NCBI GenBank assembly: GCA_024280155.1
Contig: JAJRQQ010000043.1
Coordinates: 1 to 53,304 of the forward strand
DNA: 53,304 nucleotides
Reading direction: 5' to 3'
DNA from: Bacteroidota bacterium
GTDB lineage: Bacteria > Bacteroidota > Bacteroidia > Flavobacteriales_D > Crocinitomicaceae
Part shown: positions 36,582-40,306 of the stretch, piece by piece
How the letters are laid out: each line of letters starts with the position of its first letter
Numbering within the stretch: the stretch's first letter is position 1
Made by a program: the position numbers and the translations under genes
The notes under the pieces: generated by a model
Databases searched by the model: none
What the model saw: only the letters and a program-made list of their open reading frames with translations
What the model was told of the DNA's origin: nothing

Positions 36582-36655
36582 CGGTCTGGACGGGACTCGA
36601 ACCCGCGACCCTCGCCGTGACAGGGCGATATTCTAACCAACTGAACTACCAGACC
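36582..36655 (-). tRNA. tRNA-Asp (GTC)
   Basis: Minus-strand cloverleaf of 74 bases. The acceptor arms GGTCTGG (36649-36655) and CCAGACC (36583-36589) pair fully. The D-loop has AGTTGGTTAGA, the anticodon loop reads CTGTCAC with anticodon GTC, and the T-arm has GGTTCGAGTCC. The discriminator is G, as expected for aspartate. CCA is not encoded. A promoter and a small hairpin lie upstream and a terminator immediately downstream. Confidence 0.97.
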
Positions 36656-38061: not shown

Positions 38062-38481
38062 CTAAAAAATCTCAGCCGCAGAGAAATGAAATTCTCCTTC
38101 AATTTTTGCATTGTCATCAGAATCAGATCCGTGAACTGCATTTTTTGCCAAAGACTCAGCATATTTTTTACGAATAGTACCTTCAGCAGCATCAGCCGGA
38201 TTAGTTGCACCAATTAATGTTCTAAAATCAGCAACTGCATTTTCTTTTTCAAGAATAGCAGCAATGATAGGACCAGAAGTCATATACTCAACTAATTCAC
38301 CATAAAATGGACGTTCAGCGTGAACTTCGTAAAATTTCTTCGCTTGGTCTTCTGATAAACGAGTATATTTCATCGCTTTGATTGAAAAACCTGCATCCAA
38401 AATCATTTGGATGATATTTCCTGCTTGACCACTTTCTAAAGCGTCAGGCTTTAACATTGTAAATGTTCTATTTGTTGACAT
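38062..38481 (-). CDS. ndk: nucleoside diphosphate kinase
   Basis: Ndk exchanges the terminal phosphate between nucleoside tri- and diphosphates. The 139-residue sequence has the family start [10 protein letters not shown], the active-site histidine His117 in NAVHGSDS and the [15 protein letters not shown] motif. Length and residues are normal. A TATCTTTG box lies upstream on the minus strand at 38506-38513, giving a leader of about 20 bases. Confidence 0.97.
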
Positions 38482-38505
38482 ATCTATTAATTTTCAAATT
38501 TTGGG

Positions 38506-38513
38506 CAAAGATA
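38506..38513 (-). promoter_or_regulatory. -7 box (TATCTTTG) of ndk
   Basis: Exact TAnnTTTG match on the minus strand, 25 bases before the ndk ATG. The -33 element is unclear. Confidence 0.45.
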
Positions 38514-38635
38514 CATATTTCTTTAACTTTCTTTTGAGAAAAATGTATTATTCTACTAAAACGATTAAATCAAGAGAAGTAGGATGCTTGTAAGCTGTAT
38601 CTTGAATTTTTAACATTTATTTCACATTTAATCTA

Positions 38636-38665
38636 TTGTCAATCGAATAAAATGCTTTAAATTTG
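38636..38665 (+). promoter_or_regulatory. promoter of the candidate small RNA (TTG-N19-TAAATTTG)
   Basis: TTG at 38636-38638 and TAAATTTG at 38658-38665 with exactly 19 bases between them: full consensus and ideal spacing. The expected start point is about 38670-38674. Confidence 0.6.
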
Positions 38666-38670
38666 TTGTA

Positions 38671-38768
38671 TCGAATAAAGGGGGTAGTTTACCTTTATTA
38701 GAGTTTTATAGTTTTAGCATGGTTTAGCAGAAAGAGGAACAAGTTTTTTAAATTTGTTCCTCTTTTTG
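38671..38768 (+). ncRNA. candidate small RNA of about 95-100 bases
   Basis: The unit begins 5 bases after a consensus promoter and ends at a strong terminator. Its 5' end folds into a hairpin with perfect 8-base arms (38674-38681 and 38692-38699) and a 10-base loop. A U-rich stretch follows with a near-tandem repeat (GTTTTAGCA, GTTTAGCA; 38712-38730), then the terminator. The next gene has its own promoter overlapping the terminator's T-run, which argues for an independent RNA and not a leader. I do not recognise it as a known RNA family. Confidence 0.5.
38732..38768 (+). terminator. terminator of the candidate small RNA
   Basis: Arms 38732-38743 and 38755-38766 are perfectly complementary over 12 bases, followed by T. 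Strong hairpin with no protein gene upstream on the same strand to account for it. Confidence 0.8.
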
Positions 38769-38797
38769 ATTTTATCACATTCTTATTGTATATTAGC
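38766..38797 (+). promoter_or_regulatory. promoter of the outer-membrane protein gene (TTTG-N20-TATATTAG)
   Basis: TTTG at 38766-38769 and TATATTAG at 38790-38797 are 20 bases apart; the box has one mismatch to TAnnTTTG. The leader would be about 12 bases to the ATG at 38816. Confidence 0.5.
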
Positions 38798-38815
38798 TAG
38801 CCAAAAACATTTACT

Positions 38816-40306
38816 ATGCAAGCTAAGCTATTTTTATTTTTTACAATTTTCTCATTCTTTTCATTCTCTCAAACACAAGGTGTAGCCTATACCGAGGTAG
38901 GGAAAGGTGTGGCGACAACTTTCGTAACAGATTACCATACACTTGGTATTAATTCTTCTGCGTTAGGTTGGGGAACAGGGTACGAAGGGAAGAAATTTAC
39001 AACAGGAATGACTGAGTTTAGTCTTGGATTGTATTCCGATTCACTTTCTTCGGATAAATTAGCAAGTCTTTATAAAACTGTTCGGAAAGAAATTAGGGGA
39101 GGATCGAATACAACAACCGATTGGGAACAACAAGCTTTGTATGCGAAAGATTATCTGTTGAGTGGAATAAGCATCGATGCATCTTATAATTGGTTTGGTT
39201 TTGCTTATCAGGGAGAAAAATTTGGAGGAATTGCATTCAATATTCAAGAACAATACAATTGGTATTCTAAGTTAAGTGCAGATGCTTCCGGAATTACTTT
39301 TCAAGGAAAATTAGCCGATTATTTTGATCAATTGACGGTAGTTTATGGTGCAGATACTACTATTATAGCAAATAATGGAAACATCTCTGATGACACATTG
39401 GCGCACGTAGTTTCTGGTCGAGTTTCTGCGCCACTTAGTTTGGCTAGTATCACTGAGGGAACTAAGATAAAATTTTCATGGAATAGATTCTACAATTTCG
39501 GATATGGTCGCAAAATAATTGGTGATTCTAGCTTTGCCATTTATGCTGGTATTGGTGGGCGATTTATACAATCTACAGCAATGTTTGATTTTGAATCAAA
39601 AGATGGTGAAATTAGAATGTATTCTTCGGTTTCACCAAGTTTTAATCTAGATTATGGTGCCGTTGCTAACTCTAACCCTTCTGCAGTGAATCAAAATTCA
39701 GCTGGTATTCCAACCTCAGTGGGAAATGGTTATGGCTTGGATTTTTCCGTGAGTGTTCGATTGTTAAAGCACATTAAATTAGGACTTGCAGTGAATAATA
39801 TTGGTGCGGTTACTTACACCAGAAATGTTTATTCTGTTAGAGATACATTAGTGGGAGAGATTAGTGTAGATGGTCTTTCAAATAACAATGTAACGGATGC
39901 ATTAAAAATTTTCTTGAAAGATGGAGGGCTACTTAATCTTGTTGGTGAGGAGAAAGTAACAATAAAAAATGCCGCAAATATTCGACTTGGTGGAAGCATT
40001 GAATTAGGGAAAATGATTCATGTTGGATTTGATTTTGTTGCTCCATTTGATAGAGATAGCCCAGGAAGCATTCAAAATGCTATTTTTTCAGTTGGTGGTG
40101 AAGTTCGACCAGTACGCTGGTTAGCTTTAAGCGTTGGTTATTATGGTGGTGGAATTTATAAAAATAACATTCCTGTAGGGATCAATTTCATTCTTGGAAA
40201 AGGACGCTATGAAATTGGGATTTCTTCAAGAGATGCGCTGACTTTTTTAACGAAGAATTCAAACAGTATTTCAACAGCATTTGGAGTTGCTCGATTGAGA
40301 TTTTGA
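38816..40306 (+). CDS. outer-membrane beta-barrel protein (DUF5723-like)
   Basis: A 496-residue exported protein with a signal peptide ending FSFSQ. Alternating hydrophobic strands and an aromatic C-terminus (FGVARLRF) indicate a beta-barrel. The long N-terminal part (NSSALGWG, SYNWFGFAYQGEKFGGIAFNIQEQYNW) and LGLAVNNIGAVTY resemble DUF5723/PorV-FadL-like proteins of Bacteroidetes; the family name is tentative. It is a single gene, ending 9 bases before the Nudix gene on the other strand. Confidence 0.78.
   Translation: MQAKLFLFFTIFSFFSFSQTQGVAYTEVGKGVATTFVTDYHTLGINSSALGWGTGYEGKKFTTGMTEFSLGLYSDSLSSDKLASLYKTVRKEIRGGSNTTTDWEQQALYAKDYLLSGISIDASYNWFGFAYQGEKFGGIAFNIQEQYNWYSKLSADASGITFQGKLADYFDQLTVVYGADTTIIANNGNISDDTLAHVVSGRVSAPLSLASITEGTKIKFSWNRFYNFGYGRKIIGDSSFAIYAGIGGRFIQSTAMFDFESKDGEIRMYSSVSPSFNLDYGAVANSNPSAVNQNSAGIPTSVGNGYGLDFSVSVRLLKHIKLGLAVNNIGAVTYTRNVYSVRDTLVGEISVDGLSNNNVTDALKIFLKDGGLLNLVGEEKVTIKNAANIRLGGSIELGKMIHVGFDFVAPFDRDSPGSIQNAIFSVGGEVRPVRWLALSVGYYGGGIYKNNIPVGINFILGKGRYEIGISSRDALTFLTKNSNSISTAFGVARLRF

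Follow-up and report, generated by a model that had tools for sequence, protein, structure and literature searches.

The window, that is the whole stretch of 53,304 nucleotides analysed here (contig JAJRQQ010000043.1 of a Crocinitomicaceae genome, Bacteroidota), contains an intergenic region flanked by a gene for NDK and a gene for a DUF5723 protein (Table 1). From position 38636 to 38768, sequence and folding reveal in order a promoter of the Bacteroidota sigma-A type, a 5′ hairpin, a single-stranded U-rich linker and a strong terminator. The segment 38671-38770 folds with -31.4 kcal/mol, compared to -16.05 +/- 2.79 kcal/mol for shuffled sequences (z -5.5; reached by none of 200 shuffles). 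An 8-bp hairpin at the start of the RNA and a U-rich linker with a near-tandem repeat, both named in the original prediction, were recovered: the hairpin by the fold and the repeat as TAGTTTTAGCA/TGGTTTAGCA in the window sequence, with the linker itself unpaired. The terminator was recovered as well, but its stem is longer than the 12 bp originally assigned to it. The linker contains an AUG which, read by eye in the window, continues with GUU UAG and which is found in only 28 of 46 copies; judged by eye, the RNA appears to hold no conserved reading frame. The order of promoter, hairpin, linker and terminator recurs across the family Crocinitomicaceae, which is beyond chance.

Table 1. Features at and around the predicted small RNA gene (positions in the window)
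Feature	Position	Strand	Basis
NDK gene, left neighbour	38062-38481	minus	Pfam
A/T-rich upstream stretch TTTAACATTTATTTC, possible UP-like element	38609-38623	+	TTAACA upstream of the -33 region in 32/63 family promoters
-33 element TTG	38636-38638	+	sequence; 19-base spacer to TAAATTTG
-7 box TAAATTTG, Bacteroidota primary sigma factor	38658-38665	+	TAnnTTT[G/A] in 63/64 copies, which were delimited by this box
Predicted small RNA, ~100 nt	38670-38772	+	start placed from the -7 box, end from the terminator U-run
5′ hairpin, 8 bp, arms AAUAAAGG/CCUUUAUU, loop GGGUAGUUUA	38674-38699	+	fold; kept in 64/64 copies
Single-stranded linker GTTTTATAGTTTTAGCATGGTTTAG	38703-38727	+	unpaired in fold; near-invariant in the genus (31- and 46-sequence alignments)
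Intrinsic terminator, 19 bp, 3-base loop, then ATTTTAT	38728-38768	+	fold; covariation
Promoter-like element of the next gene, TTG (38766-38768), N20, TATATTAG (38789-38796)	38766-38796	+	overlaps terminator end
DUF5723 protein gene, 496 aa, right neighbour, outside the RNA gene	38816-40306	+	PF18990, E 8.9e-10

The proposed promoter, TTG followed after 19 bases by TAAATTTG, was confirmed in the sequence. In the family, TTG stands at a spacing of 18-20 bases in 45 of 63 promoters and at exactly 19 bases in 32 of them. The only copy without a TAnnTTT[G/A] box is L031. Since the copies were delimited by that box (it was found within 40 bases in 48/48 copies of one set), the figure of 63/64 is partly due to this choice; by a hand estimate, the chance of such a box in such stretches is under a tenth. 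The hexamer TTAACA alone is not above chance in the window, and a generic sigma-70 scan was uninformative here, with 10 sites against 8.5 expected. According to the accessible text of Guerin et al. 2021 (PMC9723704), TAnnTTTG sits at -12 to -5, and therefore the RNA should start at about 38670 and not at 38672. This is a small correction to the predicted start.

The three parts of the RNA are conserved in different ways. Among 31 sequences of the genus, TTTTATAGTTTTAGCA is invariant and GGTTTAGC nearly so, and the 5′ hairpin varies in sequence. Of the 46 copies in the family alignment, 42 have the linker core GTTTTATAGTTTT without any change, and in the deepest genera the changes fall around this core. 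Two or more copies of the linker motif, at up to 2 mismatches, occur in 15/64 sequences versus 52/1280 with shuffled flanks, and the repeat structure is suggestive only. A hairpin before the linker folds in all 64 different copies (mean z -2.73; 57/64 below -1), which together have 59 different 5′ arms. A gap-free alignment of seven sequences, chosen out of twelve because their loops are equally long, shows compensatory changes and pairing in 64 of 70 cells. In the terminator alignment of 46 sequences, 95.4% of the cells pair, and both sides have changed in 14 of the 16 pairs; none of 500 shuffles reaches this covariation, and structures slid along the alignment reach 67.3% at most. RNAalifold on MAFFT alignments returned the terminator only, since the sequences of the 5′ hairpin cannot be aligned, and the hairpin claim accordingly rests on single-sequence folds. 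In the genus of the window the terminator stem AGAGGAA/TTCCTCT is conserved in sequence beyond what pairing alone would ask. In the middle of its 5′ arm, 11 of the 31 genus copies have G, 16 have C and 4 have T, and the G variants mostly give a G-G mismatch.

A search of relatives for the unit of hairpin, linker and terminator was positive, with the pairing conserved. By blastn, the region 38500-38900 matched 32 of 60 genomes. In the genus these were 31 of 34 genomes, namely the own genome and 30 of 33 relatives, with no match in G001, G027 and G031; a weak match was obtained in G058 from another family. G031 gave a weak model match only, without the linker. When linker and terminator were made into a covariance model (R1), 107 of 150 genomes of the family gave a match at E ≤ 0.001, spread over 19 of the 24 genera sampled. 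In the order, R1 found matches in 86 of 299 genomes, all of the matching rows being Crocinitomicaceae. Among weak model matches in genomes first scored as negative, L210 has the linker and was used; L209 and L211-L218 were dropped. Scanning named genomes with an 18-base pattern yielded at least 117 stretches. R1 confirmed 50 of the 80 listed first at E ≤ 0.01 (one more locus, from Lachnospiraceae, matched weakly and outside the pattern and was set aside) and 18 of the 37 others at E ≤ 0.0001, in total 68 of the 117 listed. Among the matches listed, the confirmed stretches belong to Brumimicrobium, Lishizhenia, Fluviicola and Crocinitomicaceae metagenome-assembled genomes, and those titled Flavobacterium or Clostridium were not confirmed.

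At class level, a model R2 matched 48 of 375 genomes at E ≤ 0.01. Eight of these are Crocinitomicaceae, with 80-109 bits, and three other Crocinitomicaceae genomes of the sample gave no R2 match. The 40 matches outside the family reach at most 43.5 bits; the best 4 of the 40 were inspected and rejected as stretches before terminators without a promoter box, and one of these four, L276, holds GTTTTATAGTT, which we read as the tail of a coding frame. With the best 4 of 40 inspected, we take the sequence matches outside Crocinitomicaceae as chance, and neither R1 in the order nor R2 in the class revealed a credible relative outside the family. Several sequence records with unexpected titles carry the RNA. 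CP034120.1 (L164), deposited as Glaciecola amylolytica THG-3.7, is one of them and its label looks wrong; we paired it with a locus of a Crocinitomicaceae genome (L051, contig G145:C1). Metagenome bins titled Chryseobacterium gleum, Chitinophaga pinensis and Candidatus Kuenenia also have the RNA, and these titles are probably mislabels (loci of oddly titled bins: L107, L115, L120, L136, L160, L161, L166, L178, L189 and L207). In one genus (g29) diverged copies stand in tandem, 180-290 bases apart (L087, 1067-1319; L089, 1120-1474; L090, 1112-1360), and one genome of this genus, G065, has a third copy elsewhere (L088).

The neighbourhood of the RNA was compared at 71 loci. Upstream lie a ZIP gene in 28/71, an ABC-3 permease gene in 16/71 and a Methyltransf_30 gene, which we take to be MnmD-like, in 5/71; the ZIP counts include two partial matches (L012, L024) and two loci in which ZIP is 270-340 bases away (L006, L009). 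The original prediction had kept a leader attenuator for the outer-membrane protein (DUF5723) gene as an alternative. Under this model the RNA would be the 5′ leader of that gene, and read-through would depend on a switch between its hairpin and terminator and an antiterminator. DUF5723 indeed follows in the same direction in 42/71 loci. However, it is missing at the loci L017, L022 and L009, and a protein search in 12 genomes found no match in seven carriers of the RNA (G015, G024, G019, G085, G094, G106 and G062) and placed the gene far from the RNA in two more (G061, G060). The seven carriers without a detectable DUF5723 gene argue that the RNA is not the leader of that gene, as a cis leader always lies upstream of the gene that it regulates, which is not the case here for DUF5723. 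Conversely, G027 has kept ZIP and DUF5723 without a detectable RNA between them (L308, 1340-1487) and has a promoter-like box, TAAATTTA, before DUF5723. A separate promoter of the next gene, overlapping the T-run of the terminator, had been proposed from the window and is plausible: a loose box TAnnTT[T/A][G/A] lies 16-23 bases past the terminator in 20 of 28 genus loci with DUF5723 and in 0 of 3 without it, a count made with no chance control. The minimum-energy folds show no antiterminator, which alone would not be enough to exclude one. We therefore reject the attenuator, as a very unlikely explanation, and strongly favour the independent RNA of about 95-100 bases as originally preferred, on the grounds of its own promoter box, its hairpin kept in every copy, its covarying terminator and its carriers that lack a detectable DUF5723 gene.

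The metal importers offer another origin, in which the RNA would be processed from the 3′-UTR of the upstream ZIP or ABC-3 mRNA. An importer gene does lie upstream in the same direction in 44/71 loci; against this, nearly all copies keep a promoter box of their own, and the genome of the window and 6 more of the 31 genus loci keep the RNA without a ZIP match upstream. We regard such a processing product as very unlikely. Because the neighbours vary and DUF5723 can be absent, the RNA is neither a leader nor tied to one host transcript. The simplest objection, that there is merely a strong terminator with chance conservation around it and no RNA gene, would fit the four inspected weak matches outside the family, which are terminators. 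In Crocinitomicaceae, the linker is conserved jointly with the promoter and the 5′ hairpin, whatever the neighbours are, and this objection appears extremely improbable. In view of the predicted promoter and terminator of its own and of a conservation that does not depend on neighbouring genes, the RNA would be classified as an independent trans-encoded sRNA.

Trans-encoded sRNAs share the plan of a hairpin, an exposed seed and a terminator, which is the same in this RNA. Elsewhere they usually use Hfq as a helper; here, none of 30 genomes gave an Hfq match (the genus contributed 19, the own genome included, and other families of the order 11), in a search whose control was positive in 5 of 14 named genomes. 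RRM_1 proteins were found in 14 of 16 genus genomes in a family search, with no match in G004 and G011 (89% complete), both carriers of the RNA. G001 (99% complete) has a weaker RRM_1 match, in a long frame of 374 aa, and had neither an RNA match nor, in the 12-genome search, a DUF5723 match; a joint loss of RNA and DUF5723, with only this weak RRM match, is possible.

Proteins of the RRM type bring the Bacteroides RNAs FopS and GibS into play. According to the accessible part of the source (PMC11697453), the RRM protein RbpB of Bacteroides prefers single-stranded regions and binds FopS and GibS, and FopS represses the mRNA of a SusC-type transporter. As far as described there, these RNAs (Rfam RF04319, BTncRNA_FopS) resemble the Crocinitomicaceae RNA in being short, with a TAnnTTTG promoter, a conserved U-rich single-stranded stretch and an intrinsic terminator. 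RRM_1 proteins are present in the genus genomes too, and may bind the RNA. TTCATAGT occurs in 15 of 24 fetched loci with the FopS pattern and in 21 of 33 aligned RNA copies from outside the genus of the window. Unlike FopS, the Crocinitomicaceae RNA carries a 5′ hairpin ahead of its linker. It is mostly single-copy, in contrast to the 14 FopS paralogs given for B. thetaiotaomicron in the source text available. Membership in the FopS family was rejected: the RNA has no match to RF04319, whereas all 4 FopS loci scanned, taken from genomes of the class, match at 75.6-78.2 bits. None of 11 family genomes contained the R1′ motif of FopS, searched as a 26-base pattern at up to 3 mismatches; the local alignment of this motif with the RNA was reached by 17 of 300 shuffles, and a FopS profile search gave a best E of 0.9, though many of its weak matches share one register.

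The possibility that the linker base-pairs with messages, also raised in the original prediction, found no clear support. A scan of the own genome for the linker's 20-base complement, at up to 3 mismatches, gave no site besides the RNA gene itself. In eight genus genomes, 157 sites were found for a 17-base complement versus 295 for the reversed control, and 19 versus 36 for a 16-base complement, with eight of each being the RNA gene itself; the own genome alone gave 33 sites versus 27 for the 17-base complement. Target prediction in the window returned 5 of 48 genes with z < -2. Regarding gene starts, a first enrichment of 8-mer complements was biased because some loci had been fetched with the complement itself. 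After removal of these loci the sum came to 34, where gene bodies would predict 10; 47 of 200 shuffled linkers gave as much. Pairing of the linker over the start codons of 467 genes was not above that of shuffled linkers (17/60 reach it; runs of at least 8). With AATTTCATAGTTGTAG, a piece of the loop in the other genera, start codons gave a result above shuffles: pairing at 82 genes, reached by 2/60 shuffles, and with runs of at least 10 at 24 genes, reached by 1/60. This is a hint only, because most of these genes are neighbours that recur from genome to genome. Hence, long complementary sites are not enriched and the tests at gene starts are mixed.

Two readings concern the partner of the linker. 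It may mainly be a platform for protein, acting as a sponge or partner of RRM proteins and not as a seed for mRNA pairing. Its single-stranded stretch of about 25 bases, nearly invariant in the genus, would suit such a role, as would the lack of enriched long complementary sites, the failure to find Hfq where RRM proteins are present and the binding behaviour of RbpB in the source cited above, yet by the shuffles the resemblance to the FopS motif lacks significance. We regard this option as possible but doubtful. It does not exclude pairing with mRNA, since the FopS stretch also pairs with mRNA. The targets might also include the DUF5723 mRNA itself, with hairpin loop and linker pairing to the start codon. 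The longest run over the start codon averages 8.3 for 39 DUF5723 starts versus 6.8 for 126 others (p 8e-5), and 9.1 (n=27) versus 7.3 (n=18; p 0.004) when only starts with lysine as second codon are compared; these p values are too small because the loci are related. Duplex energies agree (mean z -0.78, n=40, versus -0.08, n=127), and a 13-base pairing is seen in L053. However, RNAs from other lineages pair as well (8.27) as the own ones (8.31), in what is a weak test given nearly identical linkers, and the RNA is kept where DUF5723 is missing. DUF5723 mRNA as a target thus seems rather unlikely.

The locus very probably represents a conserved, independently transcribed gene for a trans-acting small non-coding RNA of about 100 nt, with the linker as a docking surface. 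The comparison of sequences shows a predicted sigma-A type promoter of its own, a 5′ hairpin that varies in sequence, a near-invariant linker core and a covarying terminator, all kept despite loss or exchange of both neighbours. The RNA would be transcribed and accumulate, its ends presumably protected by the 5′ hairpin and the terminator, and the exposed linker would be the working surface that docks on a partner in trans. This partner could be several mRNAs via short pairing, an RNA-binding protein, for which the small RRM proteins are candidates, or both, and docking would then change the translation or stability of mRNAs. This docking mechanism is an inference, given negative searches for long complements and mixed tests at gene starts.

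A known Rfam RNA was rejected. At the gathering threshold of Rfam 15 the window gives a single match, to a tRNA (36582-36655), and the loci of ten relatives gave 0 matches. Our literature search, with subscription papers and preprints outside its scope, found no paper on small RNAs of Crocinitomicaceae or Fluviicola, and broader queries showed nothing on this family among the titles listed. Rfp18 and other Rfp RNAs of Flavobacterium psychrophilum, a bacterium of the same taxonomic order, are likewise independently transcribed RNAs, and TAnnTTTG is found in the main promoters of that genome (PMC9723704). The accessible text describes a third stem-loop of Rfp18 as the part that pairs with targets, and we set the Rfp RNAs apart by this description and by the outcome of our model searches, in which no match outside Crocinitomicaceae was judged credible. 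On the basis of comparative analysis, the RNA is a new family of a known kind, the trans-encoded sRNAs. Its central stretch has hardly changed in a large part of this family of aquatic bacteria, and the exact core in most copies together with the presence in most sampled genera implies a widely used partner. Since Hfq was not found in these bacteria, the RNA provides a handle on sRNA action without Hfq.

A more far-reaching, and in our judgement improbable, idea is that it is the core regulatory RNA of a family without Hfq that acts via small RRM proteins, with a role in metal homeostasis; it and FopS/GibS would then be two branches, or convergent forms, of a single RRM-dependent system that spans the phylum and acts on translation starts. 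In different genera, genes of two unrelated families of metal importers, ZIP (PF02535) and ABC-3 (PF00950), are found at the same position ahead of the RNA (for example L002 and L041, or L051 and L066), and DUF5723 often follows with either importer. A link of the RNA to metal homeostasis is possible.
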